Shown here one piece after another: positions 3,167 through 26,452 of a stretch of DNA of 32,250 nucleotides. Position 1 is the stretch's first letter; each line of letters opens with the position of its first letter. This DNA comes from Caldifarciminota bacterium (lineage in GTDB: Bacteria > Hydrothermota > Tepidihabitantia > Tepidihabitantales > Tepidihabitantaceae): assembly GCA_026397595.1 (NCBI GenBank), contig JAPLUO010000192.1, positions 1-32,250 on the forward strand, written 5' to 3'. The position numbers and the translations under genes are program-made. A model generated the notes under the pieces. It searched no databases, had not been told where the DNA came from, and worked only from the letters and a program-made list of their open reading frames with translations.

Positions 3167-6100
3167 TCAGGCCAGCTTCGCGCGGATGGAGTCGAGAATC
3201 CGCTTGACCTGCTGGGCCAGCGTTGCGTAGCCGTGTTCCGAGGCAAGCCGGTATGCCTCTTCTGCCAGTGGCAGGGCGTCCTTTGGGCGGTTCTGTCTGT
3301 CCGACATCAGGAGGGCCTGATTGGCAAGCGACCGCGCCAGTCCTTCGGGAAGGTCGAGTTTCCGGCACAGTCGCTCCTCTTGTTTGTGGAGGTGCATAGC
3401 TTTGCTTGGTACGCCGCGGTCTCTCCAGACAAGGGCCTGATTGCCCAGGCAACTCTGAAGCGCATCCTTGCAGCCGAGCTTGCGGCATAGTCGTTCTTCT
3501 TGCTTGTGTAGCCGTATGGCACCAACAAGGTTGCCGCGTTTCCGGAGAATCCTAGCCTGATTGCCAAGCGAGTAGCAGAGCCCCAACCTGCTCTTGAGCT
3601 TCCGACATATCCGCTCCTCCTCTTTGTGAAGCTTCATTGCTCCATCCAAGTCGCCCATGGTCTGCAGTAGTTCACCTTGGTTGCCCAAGCATCCCTGAAG
3701 TCCGTCCCAGTCTTCCAGCTCTCTGGACATACGCTCCTCCTCCTTGTGGAGCTTCATTGCCTCCTTGAGGCGGCCACGCGCGGCAAGTATGAGCGCCTGG
3801 TTGCCCAACGAGAACGCCACTCCGTGCTGATCGCCCAATTCCTTGCAGAGTTGCTCCTCTTCCCGATGAAGGCGTATCGCGTCATCCAGCTTGCCGCGGT
3901 CGGAGAGGATTACAGCTTGGTTACCCAACGAGACGGACAGTCCATCCTTGCAGCCCAGGTCTCGATAGATGCGCTCCTCTGCCTTGTGCAGTCCCATGGC
4001 CGCGTCCAAGTCGCCACGGTCATAGATGATGAGTGCTTGGTTGCCGAGAGATGTTGCCAACTCGATCTGGTCTCCCAATTCCCGGCAGATCAGTTCCTCT
4101 CTCTTGTGGAGAGTCATAGAAGCACTGAGGAATCCTTGGTCGTAGAGAATCAGGGCCTTGTCCCCCAGGGCGCTTTGAAGACCATACTTGTCGCCAGCGC
4201 GTTTGCAGATCGCCTGCTGCTCGGCCAACAGCTTCAATGCCGAGGCCAGTTTCCCTTTGTCATAGAGAATGTTGGCTAGTCTACCTAGTGCCGCTTGTGT
4301 GCCAGAAACGTCAGAAGTCCGGTGGCAGATTCGTATCTGCTCTCTGAACAGCTTGGCCGCTTCGTCGAGCCTGCCGCGACCGTGGAGGACTACGCCCAGT
4401 TCCCCAAGACGGAACGTTTTCTCTGCGATTTCCCCGGTTGAGCGGTAGTGCCCGACAAGCCCACGGAGCAACGTCGCGGCCTCCGCCCAGAAGCCCATAT
4501 CCTTGAGTAGCAGCGCGACTCTGAAAGCCGTAGACGCGCGCCGGCTTGGGGACTTGACCAAGGTGGCGTAGGCATTCTGCGGGGTCAGCCCAGGGCCTCC
4601 ACAGAGCAGCGCCCAGCACGCCTCGATGCTGAATCTGTCGCTGTCCCAAGCCGCGTCAAAGAACTGCATGTCTGCGATCAGGTCGTACAGCCGCTGCCAG
4701 GACTTGGCCCGGGCGAACTGCCACGGCAGTTCGTCGGTACGGCGCGGGCCGGCGTCCTGTCTGTCAAAGTAGCTGGCAAGACGGAGGTGGGCGGTGGCTT
4801 GCTGCTGCTCTTTGCGCAGGTAGCGGTTCCGGACCGCAGCACGCAAGTGGTCGTGGAAGAAGTTGAGGAGGCCGGCTTTGCTAGCGAGTGCCTGCTCGGC
4901 AGCAAGGAAGAGCGGGGACCAGAAGGCCCGCGGCAGCGGCTTGCCCTTCTTGCCGAGGATGTCGAGGAGTTCGGCCTCCGTCAGCCCGCGCCGCGCGGCC
5001 CAGATTGCGGTCATTGCGTCTTTGACCAGGCCGGGACGGTCGTCTTCGTAGTCCTCTTCGTATCGGGCAAGGATGAGTTCGTACAGGGACGGGATGTCCC
5101 GGGCTTGGAGATAGAGGGCGATTCGGGACTCCAGTGCTTCGTGCTTACCGAACAGCCTGAGTTCTTCAAGCAACGCCTGCAGGAAAAGCGGGTTCTCGGT
5201 CTGCTTCGCCGCCGCGATACGGGAGACGGACGCAGGGCTGAGTTCCTTCCGGTACAGCGCAAGGTAGTCCTTGATGAACCGAGCGCGTTCTGCGGCCGTG
5301 AACGGCTGAATGGTAAGCGTGGGCCAGTTGCGTTTGTTCAGGTCATCAAGCGGCCGACCGGGCAGGGTCGAAAGGACAAGCCTGACATTGGTGGGGATGA
5401 CCGGCGGCAGCCAGACCAGGTCAGGTGCGCCGTCCCGGTCTTCGAGTTGGTTCAAGGCGTCGAGAATCAGGATGACCCTGCCCTTGGCTGCGGCCATGTG
5501 CAGCCAGTTGGCAAAGGCGGCGCGTAGGGCATCGGGCTTGTCCGGTATTTCGTCCTTGAAACCGTACCTCCGCTTGAACTCGCCCAGGATTCGGCGCAGC
5601 ATCGCGGCCCAGTCTGAGCTGTATGGCGACGCGCCGATGAAGTGTAATACGAACAGGTCGTCAGGATGGTCTTTGCGGAAGCGCTGCGCCCAGTTGGCAA
5701 GCAGGGCAGACTTGCCCGAGCCGGAATTTCCGAGTATGACCAGCGGCGGGCCGTCGCCGGAGGCGTGCTCGTCGAGTTGCCTGAAGTACTCGTCCCGGCC
5801 GATGTACACTCGGGCCCGGCTGCGGGCAAAGGCGTCGTGCAGCATCGCTTCCCGGTCCAGCGGGGCCGGCTCGGACCCGGGCGGGTAGAGCTCATCGATG
5901 ACCTTGGTCAGGTCCTCAAGCACCAGGTCGCCCAGTTCCTCCGGGTCAGCGTAGTTCTCGCACACCGGCAGGCCACTTGAGCGGATGCGTGTCTTGAGCT
6001 TGGCGAGCTTTTCGGCTGCCTCGGGGCTTTCGGAGGCGAAGTCAGAGCGGTTCGCCTCTGTGGGCAGGCGGTTGAGAAAGCCCGGGTCGCGGAAGTAGAA

Positions 6101-6541
6101 GAATGAGCGGCCCGCCATCTTAAGGTCGTTCAGGACCCCGTGCCAGATTTCGAGTTCGGTCAGGGAGTGCTTGAGGTGTTCCTTGAGCCAGGGCTCGCGG
6201 TTAAGGAGGTCCTGCGGCAACTCTTCGGGCAGCGAGCCGTAGCGCTCCCCGAGGACGCCGATGAAGTAGGGCCGGCAGCGCCGGATTTCCTCAAGGCAAA
6301 TGGGCAGGACCTTGCCTTCCGCCTTCTTCTCGTCCGGCACGCCCCAGCGCAGGTCAACCTCGCCCCAGGTCACGAACCGTTCTTCGCACAGCTTGCGGAG
6401 TTGGGGGAAGATGCGCTTGACCAGTATGTCCCGTTCCCGGAACATGTCGCGGAATGTCGAGGAGATGAACACGCGGACGACGCGTTCTTTGGCAGAGGGT
6501 TTCAGGTTTCCAGGTTTCAGGTTGGCGAGTTGGTCGTTCAT
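3167..6541 (-). CDS. DUF4062 - P-loop NTPase - TPR protein (nephrocystin-3-like layout)
   Basis: 1124 residues. The start at 6539-6541 is fixed by an ATGA overlap with the upstream TIR-TPR stop; a frame open 93 codons further is inside that gene. Residues 20-130 are DUF4062 (VRVFISSTFRDM, VDLRWGV, PYFIGVLGERYG). An AAA/NACHT-type NTPase follows: P-loop GNSGSGKS (271-278) and Walker B VILILDAL (356-363). From about residue 690 to the end run about eleven TPR-like units of 40 residues built on LGNQA.IL..RG.L..AM.LHKEEER. DUF4062-NTPase-TPR/WD order is known from nephrocystin-3 and NWD-type proteins and from bacterial STAND proteins. Inference: a ligand- or invader-sensing switch. The DUF4062 output is uncharacterised; its position and fold class suggest a TIR-like role. 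Its first 45 codons are duplicated three times in this window. Confidence 0.88.
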   Translation of the reverse strand: MNDQLANLKPGNLKPSAKERVVRVFISSTFRDMFRERDILVKRIFPQLRKLCEERFVTWGEVDLRWGVPDEKKAEGKVLPICLEEIRRCRPYFIGVLGERYGSLPEELPQDLLNREPWLKEHLKHSLTELEIWHGVLNDLKMAGRSFFYFRDPGFLNRLPTEANRSDFASESPEAAEKLAKLKTRIRSSGLPVCENYADPEELGDLVLEDLTKVIDELYPPGSEPAPLDREAMLHDAFARSRARVYIGRDEYFRQLDEHASGDGPPLVILGNSGSGKSALLANWAQRFRKDHPDDLFVLHFIGASPYSSDWAAMLRRILGEFKRRYGFKDEIPDKPDALRAAFANWLHMAAAKGRVILILDALNQLEDRDGAPDLVWLPPVIPTNVRLVLSTLPGRPLDDLNKRNWPTLTIQPFTAAERARFIKDYLALYRKELSPASVSRIAAAKQTENPLFLQALLEELRLFGKHEALESRIALYLQARDIPSLYELILARYEEDYEDDRPGLVKDAMTAIWAARRGLTEAELLDILGKKGKPLPRAFWSPLFLAAEQALASKAGLLNFFHDHLRAAVRNRYLRKEQQQATAHLRLASYFDRQDAGPRRTDELPWQFARAKSWQRLYDLIADMQFFDAAWDSDRFSIEACWALLCGGPGLTPQNAYATLVKSPSRRASTAFRVALLLKDMGFWAEAATLLRGLVGHYRSTGEIAEKTFRLGELGVVLHGRGRLDEAAKLFREQIRICHRTSDVSGTQAALGRLANILYDKGKLASALKLLAEQQAICKRAGDKYGLQSALGDKALILYDQGFLSASMTLHKREELICRELGDQIELATSLGNQALIIYDRGDLDAAMGLHKAEERIYRDLGCKDGLSVSLGNQAVILSDRGKLDDAIRLHREEEQLCKELGDQHGVAFSLGNQALILAARGRLKEAMKLHKEEERMSRELEDWDGLQGCLGNQGELLQTMGDLDGAMKLHKEEERICRKLKSRLGLCYSLGNQARILRKRGNLVGAIRLHKQEERLCRKLGCKDALQSCLGNQALVWRDRGVPSKAMHLHKQEERLCRKLDLPEGLARSLANQALLMSDRQNRPKDALPLAEEAYRLASEHGYATLAQQVKRILDSIRAKLA
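3290..4310 (-). repeat. tandem TPR-coding repeats, 120-bp period
   Basis: The DUF4062 protein's C-terminal half is encoded by successive 120-bp units, each giving LGNQA-type helix pairs and the charged H-K-E-E-E-R motif. The copies are similar in DNA as well as protein, which suggests recent expansion or homogenisation. Confidence 0.8.
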
Positions 6542-8088
6542 GGCTTCCGGCAGTCGGTCTGCTGTCGCAGCAGTTCGTCGTAGTAGGTCTTGCAGAATCC
6601 GGCCGACCGCTCGTAGTCGTACCGCGCTCGATCGAGGTTGCCTAGCAGGTAGTTGGCGAAGCCATCGTAGAAGAAGTCTTCGGGCGTCGCAGGGTTCCGA
6701 AAGTGCCTGCGGTCCAGCACCCGTTCGCACACCTCGCGTAGCTTGGCCTTCCCGGCGGTGGCATACAACACCCGCGCGAATTCGATGGTGAACTGGCGCC
6801 CGCGCACGGGGTCCGGGCACAGTTTCCGTTCGTAGAGAGTCAGGGCCGCCGGTACTTTGCCCGTCTTGAGGTACAGGTCCGCCAAGTAGTGGTAGACGTT
6901 GGTGTCCTTTCGCTTCTCGGCTTCGCTTTCGAGGAGCAGGACCGCTTCGTCACAGCGCCGGGCGTCCCGTAACGCACTACAGTGATAGAGCAAGGACGTA
7001 GTATCGTAGATACCCTGTTGCCGCATCAGAGAGAAGTGCCGGGCAGCGTCAGCGAGTTTCCCCTGCCGGTATGCCACAAGCCCGCGGAGGTTCAGTACGT
7101 CGAGTTTCTCTTCTGGTGGAAGCTGCTCAGTGTCAAAGTCGGCCAGGACGCCGGGATCGAGTTCATGACCGTTCAGTTCGACCCGCGTGCTCAGGATGTT
7201 GAATCTAATCTCGAGTTCCTCCCCCTTCGGGCAGATGGCGAGGGCTTTCTCGTACGCTGCCAGGGCTTCATCATGACGCTTCTGCCGGAAATAGACGTGA
7301 CCGAGACCACCCACACCGTTCTCGTCGTGTCGTGGATGCTGTACCGCCTGGCGGAATGTTGTCTCGGCTTCGGCCAGCAGTCCGAGCTGCAGCTCACATA
7401 CGCCCTTCACTATCAACGGGTAGTAGGGCGCCGAGGAGGGCAGGCGGTAGCGACAGGCCATGACGAAGTACGTTACCAGTTCGAGAGCGGCGCGCCACCG
7501 CCCGTCGGCAAAGGCCCGGGTGAACTCTGCGACCAGGGTACCGAGGTCTCGATACTCGGCTCGGCTCAAGTCCGAGTCTCGCAGTTCGGCCCGCAAGCGT
7601 TCGGCAAACGGCAGGCGCGGATGGTCCGGAATCCATGGGACGTAGTCTAGACTCAACACACCGCACAGTCTTTGAACTAGGCCTTCCAGACTGCGCCAAT
7701 CGCGTGTATCCACGTCGAGGTGCATTGTGTCGCGCAACTCGTCATACGGACCGCCTAGCGACCCTGGTTCACGGTCGGTGAGCACGACAGGGATTATCCG
7801 GTGCTGTTGGAGCATCCCGCAGTCAATCGCATGTCTCACTTCGAGAGTAGTGAAACGACCAATGGCCGGGTCGGTGCTGTTAGCACTGAGCAAGGGCACG
7901 AAGTAGTCAGATGCGGCGATCTGCTCGCGCAGATAGGTGGGAATCGGACTACCAACAGGAATCTCTTCGCCACGCTGGGAGTAGTCCCAGACGTCAACCG
8001 GCTGGCGCATCAGGCTGTCAAACAGCTCGCGGGCAAAGGCAATGTCGCGGGATGAGAAGCTGATGAATACTCTCGGGCAGGGCGTCAT
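6538..8088 (-). CDS. TIR - TPR protein
   Basis: 516 residues, ATG at 8086-8088. Residues 5-150 are a TIR domain (RVFISFSSRDIAFARELFDSL, then DYFVPLLS) with Glu83 in FTTLEV, at the usual place of the NADase glutamate. The remainder (about 190-516) consists of irregular TPR helices, including AYEKALAICPKG. No NTPase module lies between, so this is a simpler receptor-effector or scaffold than its neighbour. Its stop overlaps the next ATG as ATGA, coupling it to the DUF4062-NTPase gene. It starts 7 bp after the exported-protein gene, with only a weak GAAGAAG ribosome site. Prokaryotic TIR domains are known to hydrolyse NAD+ or make cyclic ADP-ribose isomers; whether this one is active is inference. 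Confidence 0.87.
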   Translation of the reverse strand: MTPCPRVFISFSSRDIAFARELFDSLMRQPVDVWDYSQRGEEIPVGSPIPTYLREQIAASDYFVPLLSANSTDPAIGRFTTLEVRHAIDCGMLQQHRIIPVVLTDREPGSLGGPYDELRDTMHLDVDTRDWRSLEGLVQRLCGVLSLDYVPWIPDHPRLPFAERLRAELRDSDLSRAEYRDLGTLVAEFTRAFADGRWRAALELVTYFVMACRYRLPSSAPYYPLIVKGVCELQLGLLAEAETTFRQAVQHPRHDENGVGGLGHVYFRQKRHDEALAAYEKALAICPKGEELEIRFNILSTRVELNGHELDPGVLADFDTEQLPPEEKLDVLNLRGLVAYRQGKLADAARHFSLMRQQGIYDTTSLLYHCSALRDARRCDEAVLLLESEAEKRKDTNVYHYLADLYLKTGKVPAALTLYERKLCPDPVRGRQFTIEFARVLYATAGKAKLREVCERVLDRRHFRNPATPEDFFYDGFANYLLGNLDRARYDYERSAGFCKTYYDELLRQQTDCRKP

Positions 8089-8095
8089 GTCTTCT

Positions 8096-9439
8096 TCAGC
8101 GTTCTCTGCCCTGCTCGTCAGGATCGTACATCACCGTCGGCGTCGATACGCGCGGCAGAACCTCAAGTTGGTCAATCTGCTTCATGAACGCCTGCCATTG
8201 CTCGGGGAACTGCTGTTTGCAGTATCGGAAGAATGCCGCATAGCGCATGACATTGACCAGCGCGTCCCAGACGGCCGGGTTGATTGACCGGATGACCTCG
8301 GGGCGCTGTGACAGCCGCTCGCTGTACTCTTTCAGGTAGACGACCTGGTACGCGTCCATTCCGAGCCGGGTTTCCACGACCATCTGCTTGATCGCGGACG
8401 GATAGTAGCCGCGCAGGTGCGCCCGGCGGGCGTCATCGTCCTTGATGTCAAGCAAGTCCAGAAGCGTGCTGCCTGGCGCATAGAAATCGAACTTGCCTGC
8501 ATAGGCCTTCGCGACCTCGAGGGCTCGATCAATGCACCATTCGTTCTCGTCAAAATCCTGCGGGCTGAGCTGCCGCGCCGCCCGGCACTCATCCGTCAGT
8601 TCACGCTCGATTCGCTCTCGGACTGCATCCTTATCGTAGTCGGGCATCTCCATGCGGTAGCGCCAGCAGTAGTAGATCGGTTCGCCGGCGATGACAAGCG
8701 AGTCTCCCACACAGTGAAAGCGGACATTCTGATTGTAGTCGCATATGACGTAGGAACGGAATCCGATCTTCAGGTCATTCTCGATCCGGTTCAGGAGCGC
8801 GGCGAAGTCAAACATGCCGCACTCACTCTCATCCGTGTCGGGCGGCGTTTCCCCGGCGCCCAGAACGTACTGGCCGCCTTCCCTAGGCAGATCCGTGCAA
8901 TACTGGCGCAGGATCAGGATGTCGGCCTGGAACAGACGCAGGCCGAGCAGGGTATTGACAAGAGCCGGATGGTAGTTCAGGATATGCCCATGTCCGTCCT
9001 CGACCAGCTTTTCCTCAGTCGGGTCATCCAGCTTGCCGAAGTAGGTGAAGCAAGAGAAGTACGGGCTATCGGCAAAACGGGCGATCGGTATCAACTGCCA
9101 ATCGTAGATGGGCGCATGAACTTGCTTATCTCCGATCCTCAACCAGAGCCGCCTTCCGTCGGCGCTGTCCTTCTGGAAATTAAGAGTCAGGCTACTAACG
9201 CTCAGCCCGCTCTCGGGCACGGCCACCTGGTCGAACGCGATGCCGCCCACACCTCCGGGTCCACCCAGCGCCGCGGAGTTCGCCAGCAGGATTTCTAGAT
9301 GCAAGGGATTCATCAACATCGGGGCGGAGTTGTGATTCAGGGTGAGGCTACCAAACTGCAGCCTCGCACCAGCCAAGGTCCAACTCAACAGCAGCAAGAG
9401 CACTGCCGCAACAATCCGTCTTGTTCGTATGCTACTCAA
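8096..9439 (-). CDS. exported or membrane-anchored protein of unknown family inside the TIR cluster
   Basis: 447 residues. A TTG start (9437-9439) is supported by AAGGGG 7 bases upstream. Residues 1-25 are a signal peptide or anchor: basic RTRR, then VAAVLLLLLSWTLAGA. The mature part is rich in aromatic and acidic residues (segments HGHILNYHPALVNTLLGLRL and RSYVICDYNQNVRFHCVGD). I do not recognise the family. No catalytic motif, beta-propeller or repeat is evident. It lies between two TIR genes in the same direction with short gaps, so it is presumably co-expressed. An extracytoplasmic sensor or partner is a reasonable guess but only inference. Confidence 0.75.
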   Translation of the reverse strand: MSSIRTRRIVAAVLLLLLSWTLAGARLQFGSLTLNHNSAPMLMNPLHLEILLANSAALGGPGGVGGIAFDQVAVPESGLSVSSLTLNFQKDSADGRRLWLRIGDKQVHAPIYDWQLIPIARFADSPYFSCFTYFGKLDDPTEEKLVEDGHGHILNYHPALVNTLLGLRLFQADILILRQYCTDLPREGGQYVLGAGETPPDTDESECGMFDFAALLNRIENDLKIGFRSYVICDYNQNVRFHCVGDSLVIAGEPIYYCWRYRMEMPDYDKDAVRERIERELTDECRAARQLSPQDFDENEWCIDRALEVAKAYAGKFDFYAPGSTLLDLLDIKDDDARRAHLRGYYPSAIKQMVVETRLGMDAYQVVYLKEYSERLSQRPEVIRSINPAVWDALVNVMRYAAFFRYCKQQFPEQWQAFMKQIDQLEVLPRVSTPTVMYDPDEQGRER

Positions 9440-9630: not shown

Positions 9631-10986
9631 TCAGTCCATCGCAGTCCGCGTTATCTCGTAGTTGATGATCCGTTGCTCGAAAGGCAGGGCCAGTTTGTGG
9701 AGCAGCCCAAGTAGGTCAACGTCGTCCGCGTGCCAGTGAATCTGGAAGTCGCGGAAGAAGAAAGGAAGCTGTTCAGTGCGCCCAGTCGCATCCCGGGGGG
9801 CGTAGGCAAGCAGAAACACGGGAAGCGGAGGCACGCCCTGGGTTTCCATGGCTCTCGCGATGCCAAGCGCGATTCCGGCTTCAACGCAGGTGTTTACGTT
9901 CACTGCGATTTCACCCGGGCGATCCCGACTCGGGGCCGTCAAGTTGCCAAGGAAGGCAACAGAGCTTGCGATTGAGTTGACAATCTGCTCACGCAGATGA
10001 TCCCCATGGATGTGAATTGCTAGCATACACGAAACGCCAGTCACTTCCTCAAGGAAAGCTCTGATCTGCTCCAAGCGCCGCTCCTGACCTTTGTACTCAG
10101 TCGCTAGGAAGATGTGCTTGGTTCGAGAGGGCTGTACGTACCGTCCGAGCAGTTCGTCGATGTGGCAATCCAGGTCGCCGCGGCTCCGTTCGTCGTCGGC
10201 CGAGCGGAACTCACAGTGCTCAGTCGGAAGCCCAGGCGGTAGGGGTGTTCCCGGTTCGTAGATGGCCAACTGCGGGAGCTTCAGCTTGGAGCTTATGTCG
10301 AGCTCTCGCAGGAGGTAGCGGTACTGCCTTTCGGCCGGGACCGCGTCGGACCGACGCGGAAGAATGACGATGTGCGCACCGCAGTCCTGCATGATTGTGG
10401 CAATCCGGTCCTCTGAGAAAACTGCCTGTCTGGGAGCGTCTGTAAGCAGGCGGATGCCACGTCCGTCCAGCATCGTGCATGCGTCATCAGCGAAGGTCCC
10501 TTCGCCCTCTTTCCACCCCCGGCTAACGTAACAGTCCCAGTCAAAGGCGCGCAAGGGGCCGCCCATCCTGCCGTGAAGACTGGACAGCAACTGGCGACCA
10601 GCTGCGGGATTCAGTCGTCCGTCTGGCAGGTCAATCCAGCTCAGCTTCCGCAAAGCAGGCGACACCTTGGCTAGATCACAATCGTCAATCCTGACTCCGA
10701 CTACTCGGAATCGCCGATTCCTAGCCCTCTCGTCTAGAGCTGTCTCGCATTCGTCCATGACCCAGCCTGACTGCAGCGACCTTCGCGACAGCAATAGCAG
10801 ACAACCTTCGCACTGCGGAATCACTGAAGGCAGACGGGCGGCAACTGGAGTACCAGCTGGCAGATTCTGGACGTCAATCCATACACTCAGGCCAGCCACT
10901 CGCGTCAGCCAATCATGCAGGCTCAGAGCGACTTCGGAGTCTATGTGGTTGTAGCTGAGGAAGGCGTTGTACAGCTTACTTGGCAT
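9631..10986 (-). CDS. TIR protein with two further Rossmann-like domains
   Basis: 451 residues, ATG at 10984-10986 with a weak AGG upstream. Residues 5-140 are a TIR domain (YNAFLSYNHIDSEVALSLHDW; SRRSLQSGWVMDECE with Glu79 at the catalytic position). Residues about 155-240 look like a second alpha/beta domain (DCYVSRGWKEGE, CGAHIVILPRR). Residues about 290-440 form a third: KHIFLATEYKGQE, NVNTCVEAGIALGIARA, PVFLLAYAP, LPFFFRDFQIHW. The third has the N-x-N..E-x-G-x-A pattern and 'lP fdfR' tail seen in nucleoside-deoxyribosyltransferase-like and TIR-like nucleotide-processing domains. There is no TPR or NTPase. The role is probably NAD or nucleotide cleavage or sensing; the assignment of the second and third domains is tentative. 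Confidence 0.8.
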   Translation of the reverse strand: MPSKLYNAFLSYNHIDSEVALSLHDWLTRVAGLSVWIDVQNLPAGTPVAARLPSVIPQCEGCLLLLSRRSLQSGWVMDECETALDERARNRRFRVVGVRIDDCDLAKVSPALRKLSWIDLPDGRLNPAAGRQLLSSLHGRMGGPLRAFDWDCYVSRGWKEGEGTFADDACTMLDGRGIRLLTDAPRQAVFSEDRIATIMQDCGAHIVILPRRSDAVPAERQYRYLLRELDISSKLKLPQLAIYEPGTPLPPGLPTEHCEFRSADDERSRGDLDCHIDELLGRYVQPSRTKHIFLATEYKGQERRLEQIRAFLEEVTGVSCMLAIHIHGDHLREQIVNSIASSVAFLGNLTAPSRDRPGEIAVNVNTCVEAGIALGIARAMETQGVPPLPVFLLAYAPRDATGRTEQLPFFFRDFQIHWHADDVDLLGLLHKLALPFEQRIINYEITRTAMD

Positions 10987-10992
10987 CCGGCC

Positions 10993-11220
10993 TCATCTTA
11001 CACTCGACGTGCGCGAAGCGCAACAGATGTTGAACGATGCACGCAACCTGCCGTACCGTCCGAGGAATACGACCCCGATTCGGTGGTCTCGCTCCGCCTG
11101 CATATCCCTGAACGTGCTGCTGATGAACACCCGAACCGTCCGCCAGCTTCGCACCAAGGACAGTTTCAGGTTATCAGGTTGCATGTTCGCAGGTTTCGGG
11201 TTAGCAGGCTTCGGGCTCAT
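10993..11220 (-). pseudogene. second DUF4062 head fragment (75 codons)
   Basis: From the ATG at 11218-11220 the frame gives MSPKPANPKPANMQPDNLK, then the DUF4062 start TVRVFISSTFRDMQAERDH. Homology fades after about residue 45 and the frame stops at 10993, 6 bp before the TIR gene. It is more diverged than the other copies, so it is an older remnant of a similar gene. The residues ahead of the signature come from a word repeat (11161-11220), as in the other DUF4062 heads. Confidence 0.7.
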
Positions 11221-11326
11221 GGTTTCTTGCAGCCGGCTTGTTGGTGGCAGCGGACGAAACCTGCAATCCGGCGCGAGACTGCTGTGACAGAATTGGGTGG
11301 GGCGTTGGACGTCTTTTCGCGCTGTC

Positions 11327-11617
11327 TCATCGTCGTGGCTTCACGACGTCGTACCCAAGCGCAATGATGGCCTTCAGGGTTTCCATTGCCGCTTTGCGGT
11401 CGTACTCCTTCTCGGAGTCGGGCAGGCCGGCGTAGGGGATGAGGTCCGGATGCTTCTTGGCCTTATCGTCGCGCCTCGGGCCGTACGTCCAGCCCTCGGC
11501 AATCCGCTGTTTGGCCCAGTTGTCGTGCGCGTTCTCGGCCAGCTTCTCGGTCAGCGCAGCAAGTTCTCTCGGCAATGCAACCTTCACTGTGTCGATGGGC
11601 TTTGGAGTGTAGGGCAA
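11327..11617 (-). CDS. stand-alone RyR-domain protein
   Basis: 96 residues. The TTG start at 11615-11617 is preferred because AAAGGAG lies 5 bases upstream and the resulting MPYTPKPIDT is how such RyR proteins usually begin; an ATG at 11630-11632 in frame lacks a site. Nearly the whole protein is one RyR domain: NAHDNWAKQRIAEGWTYGP, the RDD segment, HPDLIPYAGLPDSEKEYDR, then TAMETLK-type helix. RyR domains occur four times in ryanodine receptors and singly in bacteria, where their ligand is thought to be nucleotide-like (inference from gene neighbourhoods). The gene follows the RelA-SLOG-RyR fusion, whose TAG stop lies between this gene's ribosome site and start, so translation is coupled. 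Confidence 0.88.
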   Translation of the reverse strand: MPYTPKPIDTVKVALPRELAALTEKLAENAHDNWAKQRIAEGWTYGPRRDDKAKKHPDLIPYAGLPDSEKEYDRKAAMETLKAIIALGYDVVKPRR

Positions 11618-11618
11618 C

Positions 11619-14600
11619 CTAGCTCCTTTCATGGGGCTTGAGGGACTTCTGTCGGGCCGCGGGACTCGGCGGTATGGGCTCCACCTGAATCTGACAGTCC
11701 TGCAGGCGCTTTGGGAAGTCCTCCACGGCTGCGGAGTCCTTCTTTTGTTCATGCTCTGGCAGTCTGTCCCACGGAAGGAGGGTTGGGTTTGTCTTGTGCT
11801 CGAGGCTCTTGTTCTCGCCGTAGCGCCATCCTGCACGCAACCTCTCGATGACGTAGCGGGCGTGCTCGGCACGTGCTGCTTTCTCGATCTGCGTTTGGCT
11901 GAAACTTGGCAAGGCACACTCCAGATCCGCTGGGATGCTGCGCCAGGAGTACTCCGCCTCTCTGAGCGTGTCCAGCATACTGTCGATTTGCCTGCGACTG
12001 GACTCCTTGTACGCGTTGTCGAGTTGCTTCCAGTCGTATGTCGCCGGGTCGTCAGGCGGCTTGGTCCTCATCGCTTCCCGGAAGGTTTCGTGCGCGCGCC
12101 TGGCCAGCCGCTCGCGGGCCGACTCCATGCTGGGTGGCAGCCTAGCATGTTCGGTCCGGAGGTACTCCCTCAGGATGTCCTCGTCCTGGGGGAGAACAAT
12201 TAACCGTTCGGACTTGCCCCAGTTCTCATCGGGGAGTAGCCTGGCTGCCTCGCGACCACTGTCTTCGAGAACGGCGACAGTGGCGCCGAAGGCCAGCGCG
12301 ATGCGGTACTCCGCTGCCGCAATGCTCCCCCCGTTTATCCCCAGAACTCTTACGTCACAGGGGTCAATGCCATCTGCAATCATGTCCGCCCAGCACTGAA
12401 GCGGCTGGGCAACGCTGAAGTCGCTGCCTGGCATCGTCCGCAACTCCTTGTATCGGGTGTCTACCTCGACCCCCGGCGGCCGGGTCTTTGGCAGATATGC
12501 AATCGCGCGGATACGCGCCCCGCACTCCTTCTGGATCTCGCCGATGATGCCACCGATACCCGCAGTGGTACCAGCGGAGAATACGGTACCATGAAAGCGC
12601 CGGAAGGCCGCCACAATGAGCGGTCTGTGCTGGCGCACCTCTTGTTCGTACCTTGCGTCGCAGCTGCCAGCTACAATCACGACAGGCTCATGGATGGACC
12701 TGTACGGGTTGCCCGTCCTCGGCCGACGGCCGCGCAACTCCGAGGCGGGGAACGCTGCCTGTGCCTTTTCGGTCTTGGTTTCAAGGTCCTGCAGAAGGCG
12801 TCGACATCGCTTCCGCTTCTCGGTCAGCCCAACGACCTTCTCAGCTTGTTCCCGAGTGCCAGCGGCTCCGTGTGTCCGCCCCAACTCTCCGAGCACAAGC
12901 TTGGCCATGCTCAGGTCTCGCTCAACCGCCGCGAGTTCCTCTCTGGTGTCCCGTACCATTCGTCGCAGCTTGGCAACCACCGCCATCTGCAGGAAGCGCT
13001 TGACCTGCTCGCCGTGCGCCTGCAATTCGCGGTGTCCTTCGGGCTTCCGCTTGAAGCCGCGAATGAGCTTCCCAACCGCCACGAGCGCTTCGGCTATCGG
13101 TTTCTCGCTGTCGCTCACGAAGACGGCTTTGGCATAGGCGCCGATGCTTTCGGGCAGGCGGCCAAGGATAAGCTCAAACTCGCCCAGCTCGAAGAGCGCC
13201 CAAGGCATGTGCACATGGATCTCGGCTCGACTCAGGGATTTGGCCCTGGCTGCCTCGATAACCGGACGCAGAAGATTGAGTTCTCCGACCTCCGCGCCGG
13301 AGCAGAACGAGCACTCCACGTACCGTGCAACCGCATACGGTTCTGCCGGGCTCGCCTTGAAAGCTCGGGCGTAGTAATCCGCACCATCGCAGCCACGTGG
13401 TGGGCACTTCCCATTGGAGCTTGCTCGGTTACAGTAGAGGTCGCCCAGGTATCGCAGTGTTTCCACGTCATCTTCGTTCGCCTTCAGCGCGGCTTTGAGT
13501 TCAGTGACGCCGCCCTTACGCCGCCGATGCTTGGCGCGCCCCAGCGCGCGGAACACACGCGGGTCGGTGCGTTCGGGGGCCTTGCTGCTGTGCAGAAGAG
13601 GGGTAAGTGTCTTCACGACGCTCTTCCAGTCCTCGATGGCGGCAGCGAGGTCGGCGATCTTCAGAGAAATCCCGACATCCTTGCTATTGCCCAGAGCCGT
13701 CTGCCACTTGGTAATCTCTTCGCGGATTCGGTCAGGTGGCATGTATGCACCGTAGTCGAGCCGGAACTCGTCCACATCATCGATTGCCTTCGATAACTCG
13801 TCGTCCGCCGTTTCGAGCAACGCGGCCACACGGTGGATCTTTCGTTTCAGGCCCGACGGGGGCTGGAAATCACCTTTGTACAGCCGGTCGTGGCCCACCG
13901 CCGCCCAGGCGTGTTGAAGAACGGTGCACACCTGTATCTCGGCTTTGCGGTTGCCGATATTCCGGACCAGGTCGAGTTCGCTGTGGCAGCCACGCCACCT
14001 GTGCGGATTCCGCTTCAGCACCAGCTTGAGCGCTGTCCACAACAGGTCGAGTTGTTGCAACGGGTCGGCAGTGGCGGCGAGATGCGCGTTCAAGCTCTTG
14101 TACTTGGCCCGACTGACGCGCGCGAGTGCCCGGTCGAACGCCTGGTCCGCTTCCCGGGACCCAATGCGAGACGACGCTGTCCGTCCTTCAAGACTGACCC
14201 ACGGCATCTGGACGATATAGTGGATAGCCTGGTAGCCAAACTGATCCGGTTTCAGGCGCAGCCGCACGTCCTCAAACCTCTTCCAGTCAACGGTGAAGTT
14301 ATGCTTGATGAACTCCTCGACACGGGTCGCATCGCGCTGGCGGTAGGTGATGACGCGTGCGCCGCAGAGGTCGGTCATCTGGTGGATTGCGTCAGGGTAC
14401 TCACGGTGCTTGCGGATCACCTTCTCGGCGAAACTCGTCTTTGCCTTCGCACGGGCCTGGACGGCGGCCTCGATCTTCAGTTCGGCGCAAGCCGCACGAA
14501 GCTGTGCCTTGAGGAGTTCGGCGTACATCTCGTAGCGGTGTTGCTGCTGCTCATAAGTCCTGACCTGCCTCTGGTGTTCCTTGTGAGATATGTTCATCTC

Positions 14601-14651
14601 AGCCTCCATGTGAATGCCTGTTTGCGGGGCGGCGGAGATCCCCGCCGTCAT
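11619..14651 (-). CDS. RelA/SpoT-like - TPR - SLOG - tandem RyR fusion protein
   Basis: 1010 residues from an ATG overlapping the Nudix stop as ATGA; an internal ATG at 14597 preceded by GGAGG could also be used. Residues 45-300: RelA/SpoT synthetase-like domain with ARAKAKTSFAEKVIRK, DLCGARVI, FGYQAIHY and EIQVCTVLQHAWA. About 310-560: TPR-like helices (RALGRAKHR.., ETLRYLGDLY). About 560-640: coiled coil. About 655-830: SLOG/LSDAT-type Rossmann domain (VVIVAGSCDARYE, FSAGTTAGIGGIIGEI, GINGGSIAAAEYRIALAFGA). About 843-905 an RyR-related half (ARRAHETFREA..YKESSRRQ) and 918-992 a clear RyR (EHARYVIERLRAGWRYGE, NPTLLPWDRLPEHEQKKD). Known: RelA domains make (p)ppGpp-type alarmones; SLOG domains bind nucleotides, including in TRPM channels. 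Inference: a protein that makes and senses nucleotide signals. Typical QIRT is QVCT here. Confidence 0.87.
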   Translation of the reverse strand: MTAGISAAPQTGIHMEAEMNISHKEHQRQVRTYEQQQHRYEMYAELLKAQLRAACAELKIEAAVQARAKAKTSFAEKVIRKHREYPDAIHQMTDLCGARVITYRQRDATRVEEFIKHNFTVDWKRFEDVRLRLKPDQFGYQAIHYIVQMPWVSLEGRTASSRIGSREADQAFDRALARVSRAKYKSLNAHLAATADPLQQLDLLWTALKLVLKRNPHRWRGCHSELDLVRNIGNRKAEIQVCTVLQHAWAAVGHDRLYKGDFQPPSGLKRKIHRVAALLETADDELSKAIDDVDEFRLDYGAYMPPDRIREEITKWQTALGNSKDVGISLKIADLAAAIEDWKSVVKTLTPLLHSSKAPERTDPRVFRALGRAKHRRRKGGVTELKAALKANEDDVETLRYLGDLYCNRASSNGKCPPRGCDGADYYARAFKASPAEPYAVARYVECSFCSGAEVGELNLLRPVIEAARAKSLSRAEIHVHMPWALFELGEFELILGRLPESIGAYAKAVFVSDSEKPIAEALVAVGKLIRGFKRKPEGHRELQAHGEQVKRFLQMAVVAKLRRMVRDTREELAAVERDLSMAKLVLGELGRTHGAAGTREQAEKVVGLTEKRKRCRRLLQDLETKTEKAQAAFPASELRGRRPRTGNPYRSIHEPVVIVAGSCDARYEQEVRQHRPLIVAAFRRFHGTVFSAGTTAGIGGIIGEIQKECGARIRAIAYLPKTRPPGVEVDTRYKELRTMPGSDFSVAQPLQCWADMIADGIDPCDVRVLGINGGSIAAAEYRIALAFGATVAVLEDSGREAARLLPDENWGKSERLIVLPQDEDILREYLRTEHARLPPSMESARERLARRAHETFREAMRTKPPDDPATYDWKQLDNAYKESSRRQIDSMLDTLREAEYSWRSIPADLECALPSFSQTQIEKAARAEHARYVIERLRAGWRYGENKSLEHKTNPTLLPWDRLPEHEQKKDSAAVEDFPKRLQDCQIQVEPIPPSPAARQKSLKPHERS

Positions 14652-15091
14652 CCGGTACGCACGCTCGCATAATACTCAATGAACGGTCTAAATGCGTCGA
14701 GGATATTCTGCTTCGTCAGATCTTTGGTCGGCTCCCAGGCGGAATCGTCGTGCTCCTCGCTGAGCCGCACCGCGCCCGAGACGAGTTGCGCTTCCATGAT
14801 CAGGTGCACGACGTGGATATTCGGCAGGTCGGTTTGGACTGCGCCGACCGCACGGGTGGGGATGACGTCGAGCCCGCACTCTTCTTTGACCTCGCGGACG
14901 AGCGCATCGGCGAAGTTCTCGCCCGGTTCGGTCTTGCCGCCGGGGAACTCCCAGACGCCGGCGTTGGATCTGCTGGTCTTGGAACGCCTGAGCAGCAGGA
15001 CTCGACCCTCTTTGTCCTTGATAATCGCCCTGACTGCCAAGACGAAGGGTTTCTGCTCGGACTTCATGTCGGAGCCCGGTCGTGCGGTCAT
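14648..15091 (-). CDS. Nudix hydrolase (intact catalytic box)
   Basis: 147 residues. The start at 15089-15091 is set by an ATGA overlap with the preceding Nudix gene. The Nudix box spans residues 52-74 and is complete: Gly52, Glu58, Arg66-Glu67, Glu70-Glu71, Gly73 (segment LVREVKEECGL). The fold is MutT/ADP-ribose-pyrophosphatase size and hydrolyses a nucleoside diphosphate linked to another group; the substrate is not readable from sequence. Its stop overlaps the start of the RelA-SLOG-RyR gene. In this operon an NAD-derived product such as ADP-ribose, or an alarmone, is an attractive substrate (inference). It is a tandem paralogue of the next gene upstream. Confidence 0.9.
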   Translation of the reverse strand: MTARPGSDMKSEQKPFVLAVRAIIKDKEGRVLLLRRSKTSRSNAGVWEFPGGKTEPGENFADALVREVKEECGLDVIPTRAVGAVQTDLPNIHVVHLIMEAQLVSGAVRLSEEHDDSAWEPTKDLTKQNILDAFRPFIEYYASVRTG

Positions 15092-15546
15092 GGTACCCAC
15101 GACCTCCAGACAATACTCCACGATTCCTCCCGGCCGCGGGCTTTCTTCTCTAGCTGCCGGCAGCCCGGGCAGGGCAGGTCCAGGTCAGCGATCGGGATCC
15201 ACTGGTAGCAGTCGTGTTCGGTGCTGAGTTCGACCGCACCGGACAAGACCTTGACTTCCATCAGTAGTCGGACGACGTGGAGCTCAGGCATCTCGGTCTG
15301 CAGGACCGCGACGGCGCGGGTTGGAGTGACATCGAGCCCGCACTCCGCTTTGACTCTGCGGACCAGCGCGTCAGCGAAGCTCTCGCCCGGGGCCACTTTG
15401 CCGCCGGGGAGTTCCCAAACCGCGCGCCCAGTGCGGTTGGCCCTGGAACGCCGCAGCACCAAGCATCGATCCTTGCCGTCTTTGATGATCGCCTTGACGG
15501 CAAGCCCGAAGGGTAGACCCTCACTCGTTTTTCGGGAATCAGCCAT
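15088..15546 (-). CDS. Nudix-fold protein with degenerate catalytic box
   Basis: 152 residues; ATG at 15544-15546 with a strong AGGAGG 6 bases upstream and a 3-bp gap after the TrkA-N gene. Similar throughout to its downstream neighbour, so a tandem duplication. The Nudix box (residues 49-71) keeps Gly49, Glu55, Arg63 and Glu68, but the key glutamate after Arg63 is Arg64 and the first of the EE pair is Ala67 (LVRRVKAECGL). These positions bind catalytic metal in MutT-type enzymes, so hydrolysis is probably lost or strongly altered. A binding or sensing role is likelier. The C-terminus has a CPGC pair and a basic tail. TRPM2's NUDT9-H domain is a known precedent for a Nudix fold kept as a ligand sensor. 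Confidence 0.87.
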   Translation of the reverse strand: MADSRKTSEGLPFGLAVKAIIKDGKDRCLVLRRSRANRTGRAVWELPGGKVAPGESFADALVRRVKAECGLDVTPTRAVAVLQTEMPELHVVRLLMEVKVLSGAVELSTEHDCYQWIPIADLDLPCPGCRQLEKKARGREESWSIVWRSWVP

Positions 15547-15549
15547 TCT

Positions 15550-16893
15550 CTACCTCCTTCCGAGCACCAACTCCGGCGTGCATGTGTGCTGGAGCAGGGG
15601 AAATGCCTTTACACACTCGGGCTTGCAGACCGGTTCCCCGATTCCCGGTAGCAGCGCGGCAAGCCCGCCGTGGGTACTCGTTCGCAGCACGATTGGCACC
15701 TGTCGGCCCTTGGCTTTGAGGCGGTCATCGACGGTCAGCGCAGCAGTCAATCCGAGCGAATCGTCGTCGAAACAAACGTAGGCTCTCGTGAGACTGAGAT
15801 ACCGTTCGTGCTCGTACAGCGGGCTGCCGGCCTGGAATGCAGGGGACTTCACCTCGATTCCGACTGGGTCCAAGTCCCAGACGCCGGCCAGTTGAGGGTA
15901 CTCTGAAAGCAGGAAGTCCCGTTTCTCGGGAGCTGACCGGTCTCCCATAGTCACCCGGAGTTTCGCGGCTCCGTCACCGCGCTTCAGCTTCCATAGCTCG
16001 GCGAGTTTGACGAGCAGGGCCTCTCCCATTCGACCGACACCAAGCACCAGGATGTGTGGAGCGGCCGCCGGGCCGGCGTCAAACGGTGGGTCCAGATTCA
16101 AGAGGACTTCGGCGCCGTCCTCGTAGATGTTGAAGAACTTCAACTGTTCTCGGTCCCATGCACCAGCTTCCTGCTGGTGTCGGTCGAGGAGTTGCCGCAG
16201 GCGAGAGGAGAAGACGTGGCAGGCACATCTCAGTATTCGATTGCATCCGTGGGCCAATTCGAGAGCCCGGATGCAGACTTCCGCATTCAGACCGTCGTCG
16301 CGCGAAACCGCTACAACGTGCCGGGCTCGACACACCGCGGCCTGCCGTAGCATGTACGGTTCTGTGGCGTCCCCAATCAGTACGGCCGCGCCGACATTCC
16401 TCGCGGCTCCGATAAGAGTGTTCTCAGCATTCTGCTCTATCACGACGACTCGGTCACCACGTTCGCGCAGCCTTCTGGTCAGTTGCAGACCTTTCCGTCC
16501 CAGCCCGCAGATGACGATGTGGTCGCGGGCGAAGAACTGCACGAACAGAATCCGCACCTGCCCGTAGTACAGTGCAGCCAGAGCTCGGATGCTTGCATAG
16601 ACCGCCAGTGCCGGGAGAATCAGCCGGGCGAACTGAAGGGTCCAGTGCAGGGGCTTGTCAAACCATGTGAAGTTGAGAGCCAAGAGTTGGAGGGTCCGGT
16701 AGAGGATTTCCCAAGGATGGAGGTTCCAGATCGGCGCGCGTCCGAAATGGATTGAGAAGCCTATGTAGCCCAGCACCAGGCCGGTGACTGCGAGAAACCC
16801 CACGACCGGCCATTCCCATGTACGCCACAGGAGCCAGATCGTCCGGCGCGCGCTGCGCCAGGGCGAGTGCGAGTGGTCGGTCGGATTGGTCAT
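15550..16893 (-). CDS. membrane TrkA-N (RCK-type) channel-like protein lacking its usual RyR tail
   Basis: 447 residues; ATG at 16891-16893 with GGAAGGGA upstream (the TTG just before is less likely). Hydrophobic segments at about 28-50 (VVGFLAVTGLVLGYIGF), a re-entrant-like stretch at 65-80, and about 90-115. A TrkA-N NAD-binding domain follows (IVICGLGRKGLQLTRRL, VVVIEQNAENTLI, AVLIGDATEP), then a second Rossmann-like half (ILVLGVGRMGEALLVKLAEL). There is no TVGYG selectivity filter. In the family as I know it the same order continues into an RyR domain. Here the protein stops just after TCTPELVLGRR, about where RyR would begin, and RyR domains are encoded separately downstream. Role: ligand-gated ion flux or membrane NAD(H)/nucleotide sensing (inference). 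First gene of the operon. Confidence 0.82.
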   Translation of the reverse strand: MTNPTDHSHSPWRSARRTIWLLWRTWEWPVVGFLAVTGLVLGYIGFSIHFGRAPIWNLHPWEILYRTLQLLALNFTWFDKPLHWTLQFARLILPALAVYASIRALAALYYGQVRILFVQFFARDHIVICGLGRKGLQLTRRLRERGDRVVVIEQNAENTLIGAARNVGAAVLIGDATEPYMLRQAAVCRARHVVAVSRDDGLNAEVCIRALELAHGCNRILRCACHVFSSRLRQLLDRHQQEAGAWDREQLKFFNIYEDGAEVLLNLDPPFDAGPAAAPHILVLGVGRMGEALLVKLAELWKLKRGDGAAKLRVTMGDRSAPEKRDFLLSEYPQLAGVWDLDPVGIEVKSPAFQAGSPLYEHERYLSLTRAYVCFDDDSLGLTAALTVDDRLKAKGRQVPIVLRTSTHGGLAALLPGIGEPVCKPECVKAFPLLQHTCTPELVLGRR

Positions 16894-16920
16894 CAAAGGT
16901 CCCTTCCGTAGCGTGGTTAT

Positions 16921-21758: not shown

Positions 21759-23243
21759 TTACAGCGCTTCGGTCAGGAGCTTGAAGTCGGTCGGCTGGAG
21801 CTGGTAGTCAATCTTCACGTCAATCGCCAGTTCGTAGCGCTTGGCGAATTCGCTCAGGCGGTCGTACCAGTCGGTGGTCAGGAAGTCGGTCAGCGCCGGG
21901 GCCGCGACTATCCGGAGCTTGCGGCCGCGTAGCTTGGGCAGCTTGGAGACTATCGCCCGCTCAATCTTCATGGCAATCTCGGAACGGGACCGGACCCGGC
22001 CTGAGCCTTTGCAGGTCGGGCAGGTCTCCTGCATCGAGTACATCATGCCCGGCCGCGTGCGCTCGCGCGTCATTTCGAGCAGGCCGAACCGGCTCATCTT
22101 CGAGTAGTCGGCCTTGGCCCGGTCGTTCGAGAGCTGGAGTTTGAGCTCGGCTATGACCTTCTCGATGTTCTTCGGGTCTTCCATGTCGATGAAGTCAAGG
22201 ACCAGCAGGCCGGCGAGGTCGCGCAGCCTTATCTGGCGGGCGATTTCCGCGGCGGCTTCGAGGTTGGTGGAGAGAATCAGGCGTTCGGGGTCGTCTTCCT
22301 TGGACGAGCGGCCGGTGTTCACGTCAATCGCGACCATCGCCTCGGTCTGGTCAACGGTGATGAACCCGCCGGACTTGAGCCATATGCGCTTCTGGAAGAT
22401 GCGTTCGAGTTCGGCCTCGACCCCGGTCTGTTCGAGCAGCGGTACTTCGCCGTGGTAGAGTTCGACCTTCTTCTTCAAGTGCGGGGCGATGCGGGTCATG
22501 TAGTCGGTGATTTCCCGATACCGGTCCTCGGAGTCGACAATCATCTTCTCAACGTTCGGGCCCAGCAGGTCACGCACGAGCTTGACCCCGATTTGCGGTT
22601 CCTCGTAGAGTAGGGAAGGAGTCCGGGCGGATTCGGCCTTGCTGCGGACGTCATCCCAGGTCGACTCAAGCGCCCGGTACTCGGTTGCCAGTTCCTCGTT
22701 GCTCGCCTCCCCGGCCGCGGTGCGGAGGATGAGCCCGGCATGGGGCGACTTGAACCGGCGTGCGGCTTCGCGCAACCGGTTGCGGTCGCGTCGTTCGCCG
22801 ATGCGGCGCGAGATGCCGACGCGCTGGGCGTTGGGGAAATAGACCAGGTTTCGGCCGGGGATAGAAACGAACGAGGTCAGGCGCGCGCCCTTCTCGGCAA
22901 ACGCGTCTTTGACAATCTGCACGAGGATGTCCTCGTTGTCGCGCAGGGTGATGGTACGCGGTTCGGGTTTGGCACCCTTGCCTTCGCCCTCGTCGTCGCC
23001 GAGTTCGTCGAACTCAGGGATTTCCACCAGCGGCAGGAAGCCGTTCTTTCTCATGCCGATGTTGACGAACGCCCCGCGCAGGCCTTTGACCACGTTCTCA
23101 ACCCGGCCCTTGTAGATGCGTCCGACCAGGGCCTGGCTTTCGGCCCGCTCGATATAGAACTCGACCAACTGGTCGTTTTCAAGAATCGCGACCCGCGTCT
23201 CCCATTCATTGCCGGTCAGGACAATCTTGGTTTTTACCTTCAT
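21759..23243 (-). CDS. rng: ribonuclease E/G family endoribonuclease
   Basis: 494 residues. The ATG at 23241-23243 overlaps the radical-SAM stop as TGATG, with GGAGG 4 bases before. Cuts single-stranded RNA, in rRNA maturation and mRNA decay. N-terminal S1-like region (VGRIYKGRVENVVKGLRGAFVN, 40-60), then the RNase E/G catalytic domain with metal-binding Asp307 (VAIDVNTG) and Asp350 (LLVLDFIDM), and the zinc-link CPTC (408-411). An acidic insert DDEGEGKG lies inside the S1 part. There is no long C-terminal scaffold, so it is RNase G-like in size. Forms an operon with the radical-SAM gene, a pairing common in many phyla. Confidence 0.94.
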   Translation of the reverse strand: MKVKTKIVLTGNEWETRVAILENDQLVEFYIERAESQALVGRIYKGRVENVVKGLRGAFVNIGMRKNGFLPLVEIPEFDELGDDEGEGKGAKPEPRTITLRDNEDILVQIVKDAFAEKGARLTSFVSIPGRNLVYFPNAQRVGISRRIGERRDRNRLREAARRFKSPHAGLILRTAAGEASNEELATEYRALESTWDDVRSKAESARTPSLLYEEPQIGVKLVRDLLGPNVEKMIVDSEDRYREITDYMTRIAPHLKKKVELYHGEVPLLEQTGVEAELERIFQKRIWLKSGGFITVDQTEAMVAIDVNTGRSSKEDDPERLILSTNLEAAAEIARQIRLRDLAGLLVLDFIDMEDPKNIEKVIAELKLQLSNDRAKADYSKMSRFGLLEMTRERTRPGMMYSMQETCPTCKGSGRVRSRSEIAMKIERAIVSKLPKLRGRKLRIVAAPALTDFLTTDWYDRLSEFAKRYELAIDVKIDYQLQPTDFKLLTEAL

Positions 23244-26155: not shown

Positions 26156-26352
26156 GATTGAAAGTGGACAAAGAGAGTGATGCCCTGTACTTGAGGCTCG
26201 ACGAGACCGCAGTGGTCGAGTCCGAGGAAGTCCAGCCAGGAGTGGTGCTGGACTACGACGCGGCCGGCAACATGGTTGGCGTTGAAATCCTCAACCTGAG
26301 CAAGCGCGTCGCTCCGGAACGCCTCCGCGTCCTGCAACTCGAAACCGTCTAG
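26152..26352 (+). CDS. DUF2283 protein (antitoxin-like half of the pair)
   Basis: 66 residues, start overlapping the DUF4258 stop (ATGA). The sequence begins MRLKVDKESDALYLRLDE and contains EVQPGVVLDYDAAGNMVGVEIL, the DUF2283 signature. It is usually encoded with DUF4258. Full length. Its 3' end is followed by GC-rich inverted sequence and then the 20-bp motif at 26421. Confidence 0.87.
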   Translation: MRLKVDKESDALYLRLDETAVVESEEVQPGVVLDYDAAGNMVGVEILNLSKRVAPERLRVLQLETV

Positions 26353-26420
26353 CTCGCGCCCGCGAGCCGGGTTCGTCTGTCGTAACCCGAGACTCCTGCG
26401 GGAGAGCGGCGACTAATCTT

Positions 26421-26440
26421 TTATTGCGTCCCCGGAATTC
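26421..26440 (+). repeat. 20-bp motif at the radical-SAM duplicate's broken end
   Basis: TTATTGCGTCCCCGGAATTC matches 18 of 20 bases of the motif in opposite orientation at 29175-29194. It lies 12 bp from the point where homology of the duplicated gene stops, so it marks a rearrangement boundary, possibly the end of a lost mobile element. Confidence 0.6.
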
Positions 26441-26452
26441 CGGAATTACGGA

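Follow-up and report, generated by a model that had tools for sequence, protein, structure and literature searches.

The window considered here is a stretch of 32,250 nucleotides from a Caldifarciminota bacterium (assembly GCA_026397595.1, contig JAPLUO010000192.1, positions 1 to 32,250), i.e., one contig of a draft genome that is 94% complete with 6.6% contamination. It harbors a gene (11619..14651, minus strand) encoding a 1010-residue protein in which an N-terminal RelA/SpoT-type (RSH) synthetase domain is followed by a TPR-like region, a SLOG domain and a pair of RyR domains. The original prediction, made from the letters alone, had placed these parts on a single chain, and this is borne out by Pfam and by 11 homologues. 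The open frame runs on the minus strand from 14651 to 11619, and the plus strand of the same interval contains internal stops. A better ribosome site (GGAGG) precedes Met19 (14597), where the homologues also start, and the true protein is therefore probably 992 residues long. Promoter and terminator scans of the sequence gave results no better than those of shuffles.

The synthetase domain covers residues 23-300 (13752..14585, minus strand, as for all domains of this protein) and is matched by Pfam RelA_SpoT at residues 67-148 (1.6e-14). The next region (residues 318-560; 12972..13700) is helical and TPR-like. It is assigned from TPR models matching 8 of the 11 homologues and from matches of the family profile to consensus TPR structures; the window copy itself has no TPR match above the cut-off, and a weak TPR-S match. 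A SLOG domain of the TRPM/LSDAT_prok type follows (residues 656-821; 12189..12686), recognized by its AGTTAGIG and GINGGxxxxxE motifs. The LSDAT_prok/SLOG model matches the window copy at residues 656-818 with an E-value of 4.7e-5, 2 bits below the cut-off, and is found in nine of the 11 homologues (best 7.6e-10), RelA_SpoT and RyR being found in all 11. The C-terminus is formed by two RyR repeats. Pfam calls the second one (residues 911-991; 11679..11921; 4.6e-14), which displays H930, Y933, N955 and D972 at the spacing of the phage protein RyDEP (PMC13232231). A divergent half-repeat with an invariant H854 lies ahead of it (about residues 845-900; 11952..12119), and two stretches of the family profile match the tandem RyR R1-R2 structure (6uhi); the tandem RyR announced beforehand is thus right in substance. 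Two types of ligand-binding domains, SLOG and RyR, hence share the chain with the synthetase motifs ARAKAKTSFAEK, FGYQAIHY and EIQVCT, all of them present as had been described. HD hydrolase, TGS and ACT domains have no Pfam match in the window protein or in its 11 homologues. FTHFS and DBD_HTH matches in the window copy fall below the cut-off, occur in a single member and were taken as chance.

Proteins with the same domain order, 11 in all, are found in two phyla. In the phylum of the window, the fusion occurs in 2 of 147 genomes, both belonging to the window's family (2 of 18 genomes): besides the window, a genome from another genus (G008) carries the full architecture at 41% identity, and its locus argues against a binning error. 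In the second phylum, 9 of 82 genomes possess it (G191, G434, G435, G437, G398, G422, G402, G403, and G433). Identity among the 11 members is typically 27-49%. The match extends over the several domains at 41% identity across genera and at 32% across phyla, and the fusion is therefore not a chance one. Scans of genome contigs with the single protein or with a two-row alignment returned no matches, and the family was recovered by genome searches. Searches of phages, plasmids and viral contigs yielded no full-length relative; stand-alone relatives of the synthetase domain are found at 54 loci in viral contigs, mostly with a length of 320-375 residues. A stand-alone relative of the domain also lies in an 8 kb Vibrio phage record (PQ189320.1, 6709-7206; 41% identity).

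The structure of the synthetase domain was predicted with AlphaFold from residues 20-310 (window 13722-14594) together with 27 relatives from viral contigs. The model has a mean predicted local distance difference test score (pLDDT) of 80, its core exceeding 90. Its best PDB match is Bacillus subtilis SAS1 (5dec), with a template modelling (TM) score of 0.80 by target length and a probability of 1.0, and the next matches are SAS2/RelP, Rel and CapRel (7ztb). The predicted fold is that of a small alarmone synthetase, i.e., of an RSH synthetase domain, in line with the assignment made originally. The catalytic Asp and Glu, D94 and E238, are retained. In FaRel2, the ATP-donor site is made of R64, K66, S70, K74, R77, D90, G93, R95, E145 and Q147, with Y128 in the G-loop (PMC11782079). 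The window protein displays the same residues with the same within-motif spacing, as R67, K69, S73, K77, R80, D94, G97, R99, E238, Q240 and Y140, to which the syn3 histidine H144 may be added. These eleven donor and G-loop residues are kept across the 11 homologues, bar one Ser to Gly change.

An insert of 70-95 residues (151-235; 13947..14201), modelled with low confidence, separates the G-loop strand from the ExQ strand. It is present in the window protein and in its G008 orthologue and not in the G191 protein, and the lesser length of the other members is consistent with their lacking it. This long insert beside the active site, together with the sequence drift that the window copy shows at C242 and A142, could speak for a catalytically idle domain, kept as a nucleotide-binding scaffold on which the other parts assemble. 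Catalytic loss, however, would be expected to bring drift at the donor, Mg and G-loop residues, which show little or no variation among 11 members with a typical identity of 27-49%, and an idle scaffold is therefore very improbable.

The same donor-site residues are compatible with a toxic synthetase of the toxSAS type, which would inhibit growth by pyrophosphorylating tRNA or through (p)ppApp. CapRel is a single-chain synthetase whose C-terminal sensor blocks ATP binding (PMC9712102); the window protein resembles it in this layout, CapRel is among its structural matches, and a helical N-terminal extension recalls that of FaRel2. Neither a pseudo-ZFD nor a YXXY antitoxin element is recognised, though, and the top-scoring structures are the (p)ppGpp-making SAS1 and SAS2. 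By Pfam, no toxSAS antitoxin (pseudo-ZFD/YXXY, Panacea or HD hydrolase partner) is recognised in the operon or in the protein; a Nudix gene adjoins instead, and Nudix is not a known toxSAS antidote. A toxSAS-type protein is considered unlikely.

The original prediction had also taken the change of QIRT to QVCT and an altered G-loop as signs of a product other than classical ppGpp. This part finds no support. The position of C242 is occupied by Arg in eight members, Lys in two and Cys in the window copy only (a stand-alone relative of the synthetase domain also has a Cys there), and QVCT was rejected as a mark of specificity since the position varies within the family. The G-loop Tyr and the syn3 His are invariant, and FGY recurs throughout the family and in several stand-alone relatives. 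The syn3 motif reads S-x-H in most members and A-x-H in the window copy (S/A/D-x-H over the family). Synthetases of (p)ppApp carry G-x-N at syn3, S-x-H being of the guanosine type; motif swaps, however, left product specificity unswapped (PMC12226406), and the product is therefore not readable from such motifs. The absence of (p)ppApp-type motifs (RYT, GxN, YH) from the family alignment does not settle the product. Of the earlier proposal, it remains plausible that the protein makes a nucleotide signal and senses one.

The hosts bear on what this synthetase serves. As a RelA_SpoT protein that is the sole PF04607 match of its genome, it might be read as a (p)ppGpp synthetase for nutrient stress, fitted with unusual regulatory domains. 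It is present, though, in only 2 of the 18 genomes of its family and has no TGS, ACT or HD domain; the second phylum has it as an accessory gene, most of the genomes carrying it also having a normal Rel. The fusion is, moreover, surrounded by TIR, NACHT and Nudix genes. The window's family, represented by 18 genomes of which some are incomplete, yields no HD_4 hydrolase (control genomes score as expected), and canonical long Rel is found in 6 of the 147 genomes of the phylum, belonging to two other families. The lack of canonical Rel/SpoT and of HD hydrolases in the window's family argues that the fusion does not belong to the stringent response there. An HD_4 match is present in 79 of the 82 second-phylum genomes, mostly in Rel-length frames. 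A stringent-response role is unlikely in either phylum, and as a full account of the fusion it is highly improbable. An alarmone-type synthetase in hosts devoid of Rel, SpoT and HD hydrolase probably has a task outside the stringent response. Beyond the fusion itself, the near-absence of canonical Rel/SpoT through the 147-genome phylum suggests that the stringent-response enzyme is lacking phylum-wide.

Information on the ligand comes from the RyR parts. Phage RyR proteins bind 2'/3' cyclic adenosine diphosphate ribose (cADPR), and one cleaves it, via H75, W78, H100 and D117; most of the RyDEP relatives tested bind without cleavage (PMC13232231). Downstream of the fusion, a stand-alone small RyR protein of at most 101 residues (11327..11632, minus strand) starts either at ATG 11632, inside the RSH gene, or at TTG 11614. 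It displays all four ligand residues at the exact H-x2-W-x21-H-x16-D spacing and is 80% identical to its G008 counterpart. In the fused RyR, H930 and D972 are kept, the Trp is replaced by Y933 and the second His by N955, this third position being Ser, Asn or His over the family. Judged by these residues, the case for a ligand derived from nicotinamide adenine dinucleotide (NAD) is good for the small RyR protein and suggestive for the fusion.

The genes surrounding the fusion are all on the minus strand, in the order TrkA_N membrane protein, Nudix, Nudix, fusion, small RyR, TIR, exported protein, TIR-TPR, followed by NACHT and NB-ARC TPR proteins. The first Nudix hydrolase (14648..15121) overlaps the start of the RSH gene by 4 bases and has an intact Nudix box. 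The second copy (15088..15546), 60% identical to the first, has a degenerate box with RR..AE for RE..EE (RRVKAECG, as compared to REVKEECG in its intact neighbour). It has lost catalytic residues and may, as a duplicate, have become a binding protein. We take it to recall the ADPR-binding Nudix-like domain of TRPM2. The window Nudix hydrolase is nearest to the NudG/MutT models, and NudG, MutT, Ndx8 and NahA hydrolyse (p)ppGpp (PMC7584652). The TrkA_N (RCK-like) membrane protein (15550..16896) has two predicted helices. No K+ selectivity filter motif is recognisable in the TrkA_N membrane proteins (about two predicted helices each), which are putative channels. On the other side lie a 451-residue TIR-domain protein (9631..10986), an exported protein with no assigned function (8096..9439) and a TIR-TPR protein (6538..8088).

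Some further features surround these genes. Between the small RyR and TIR genes, the minus strand carries a broken DUF4062 start remnant (RTVRVFISSTFRDMQAERDH) at 10987-11300; the DUF4062-NACHT-TPR gene at 3167-6820 is intact. Farther away, a Radical SAM gene of the DUF2344 type (23243-25735) is accompanied by a truncated tandem copy (26291-27097), 92.5% identical over 669 bases.

Much of this neighbourhood recurs elsewhere. The G008 locus reads exported protein, TIR-TPR, TrkA_N, Nudix, fusion, small RyR and TIR, with identities to the window proteins of 43% for the exported protein, 47% for TIR-TPR, 52% for TrkA_N and 61% for Nudix. Within the phylum of the window, the exported protein is found in 2 of 147 genomes, the same two that carry the fusion; the chance of two genes, each present in two genomes, sharing both is about 1 in 10,700, a figure that ignores relatedness. 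The exported/TIR-TPR pair also flanks the fusion in G403, where the exported protein has two copies. This exported family (window 8096-9439; in the G403 locus, L164:13522-14886 and 4402-6567) has a common part without Pfam match and a TIR-TPR partner wherever seen, and a 722-residue copy ends in FlgD_ig/Por_Secre_tail sorting domains. For the second phylum, most neighbours owe their names to BLAST matches with genes of the window, G008 and G191, so that dissimilar genes could escape. A Nudix gene lies beside the fusion in 10 of 11 cases, 8 of 9 in the second phylum (G191 has one gene between). TIR genes are near at least five of the 11 fusions (window, G008, G403, G434, and G422), and a gene for a TIR domain fused to a phosphofructokinase (PFK) domain adjoins the G434 fusion in divergent orientation (L158:9230-11440). 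In at least G398 and G402, Nudix and fusion stand together with neither TrkA_N nor TIR recognised nearby.

TrkA_N adjoins six of the 11 fusions, four of them in the second phylum (G434, G435, G437 twice, G433). RCK/TrkA_N domains bind nucleotides. The synthetase might then be the signal generator, whose alarmone-like product would gate the TrkA_N protein and feed back on RyR and SLOG, with Nudix limiting the signal. The TrkA_N and Nudix set also occurs with a protein of a "PfkB-like"/AAA type ending in RyR, as if two ATP-using enzymes fed one effector. Five of the 11 fusions, however, have no TrkA_N nearby, the TrkA_N protein has no K+ filter motif, and a SLOG-RyR module on the synthetase would be mere feedback; we regard such an arrangement as doubtful.

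The PfkB-like/AAA protein ending in a tandem RyR ("PfkB-like" is our label for its N-terminus, Pfam calling AAA and RyR only) is found near the fusion in G191 and G422. It adjoins TrkA_N without synthetase in G439 and G455, the latter also having a Nudix gene, and in G003 a fragment of it at a contig end stands after TrkA_N and a small RyR. The family is uncharacterised, has mostly a tandem-RyR C-terminus and stands beside TrkA_N and Nudix in some genomes (members at L074:7897-10500, L166:8247-10790, L168:860-3529, L162:4541-7123, L169:5981-8914 and L013:2016-3827); two members were scanned with PADLOC, neither receiving a confident name. Other tandem RyR modules sit on TrkA_N proteins (G245, G208 and G437) and on a TIR protein (G003), and the module of the G008 fusion is 46% identical to that of the G245 TrkA_N fusion. 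The RyR pair thus recurs on different enzymes and membrane proteins, a distribution that suggests a common ligand.

The reading we tentatively favour, a little short of an even chance, is that of a pyrophosphokinase gated by an ADPR/cADPR-type nucleotide, within a TIR-linked defence cassette reset by Nudix. Once infection is sensed, a neighbouring TIR protein would make an NAD-derived nucleotide of the ADPR or cADPR type, to be bound by the SLOG-RyR-RyR C-terminus. The TPR-like region would relay binding and release the N-terminal synthetase, which would transfer pyrophosphate from ATP, most likely with a guanosine nucleotide as acceptor, yielding a (p)ppGpp-like alarmone. The latter would arrest growth and may also gate the TrkA_N membrane protein where present. 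The adjacent Nudix would remove the product (or the inducer) and reset the system, and the small RyR protein would buffer or destroy the inducing ligand. The domain order, fold, kept residues, two-phylum distribution and conserved neighbours on which this scheme draws are computed directly; we infer the ligand, activation as opposed to inhibition, the guanosine acceptor, the action of Nudix on the product and the anti-phage role. The recurrence of the tandem RyR on TrkA_N, PfkB-like/AAA and TIR proteins fits a shared sensor. Defence-type profiles are also matched, the synthetase by the PADLOC candidate PDC-S33 and both Nudix proteins by PDC-S07.

Several observations weigh against this gated pyrophosphokinase. 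TIR genes are unseen near several second-phylum members, and the inducer may therefore come from elsewhere or differ. The hosts of that phylum mostly own a normal Rel with an HD domain (79 of 82), which could clear (p)ppGpp, so that the target of a dedicated Nudix might be another molecule. In G455, Nudix and TrkA_N accompany the PfkB-like/AAA-RyR protein where no synthetase is present, and Nudix may therefore act on a shared inducer. The phosphate-binding His is lost from the fused RyR, being Asn or Ser in 9 of 11 members. Finally, the SLOG-RyR model, built from a single sequence, has a pLDDT of 38 and yields no usable structure.

A bolder version, possible and distinctly less probable, is a two-messenger immune relay. 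In this relay, SLOG-RyR would sense a TIR-made cADPR-type signal, which the same chain would turn into an alarmone or into tRNA pyrophosphorylation, with Nudix as reset and TrkA_N as an optional second output. If true, it would be a new defence system, whose minimal unit would be two genes (synthetase-SLOG-RyR and Nudix), and one bacterial operon would hold the kinds of parts found in TRPM2 and ryanodine receptors. Alarmones, as in the stringent response and toxSAS, and NAD-derived immune signals, as in Thoeris and TIR systems, are two nucleotide languages studied apart, which it would link. RyR is newly tied to cADPR recognition and the Thoeris SLOG senses cADPR isomers; both kinds of domain stand here on an alarmone-type enzyme. 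No description of the fusion was found in the searchable literature, which left out the Burroughs et al. 2015 survey of nucleotide-centred conflict systems. This survey reportedly treats TRPM-type SLOG and RyR domains, and may already mention parts of the operon type.

Among known systems, SAS1/RelQ and SAS2/RelP share with the window protein the synthetase fold, ATP-donor residues, G-loop Tyr and syn3 His. They differ in that the window protein is fused to TPR-SLOG-RyR2, carries the 70-95-residue insert and is not a housekeeping gene. Long RSH proteins (RelA/SpoT/Rel) differ by their HD hydrolase, TGS and ACT domains. The toxSAS protein CapRel likewise has an N-terminal synthetase under a C-terminal sensor and a defence-type setting; its sensor is a pseudo-ZFD reading a phage protein, in contrast to the nucleotide-type SLOG-RyR and the Nudix neighbour found here. 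PDC-S33 matches the synthetase part (5.8e-11), although only positions 25-149 of its 349-residue model are involved and it has neither SLOG nor RyR. In Thoeris, TIR makes cADPR isomers that are sensed by the SLOG of ThsA. TIR genes are also near the fusion, an enzyme with a C-terminal SLOG; the effector here, however, is a synthetase and not SIR2, macro or transmembrane (TM), the SLOG is of the TRPM type, and RyR and Nudix are added. The window has no ThsA of the SIR2- or TM-SLOG kind, PADLOC and NCBIfam giving weak ThsB-like TIR matches only. Compared to RyDEP and phage RyR (PF02026), the small RyR keeps H, W, H and D at the exact spacing; here the proteins are bacterial and belong to a cassette with presumed users of the signal, and of the four residues the fused RyR retains just H and D. 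Finally, animal TRPM2 combines SLOG, channel and Nudix on one chain. The part list of the operon, with its TRPM-type SLOG, channel-like membrane protein and Nudix, resembles it, whereas in the operon these parts are separate genes, the membrane protein is a different one and a synthetase is added.

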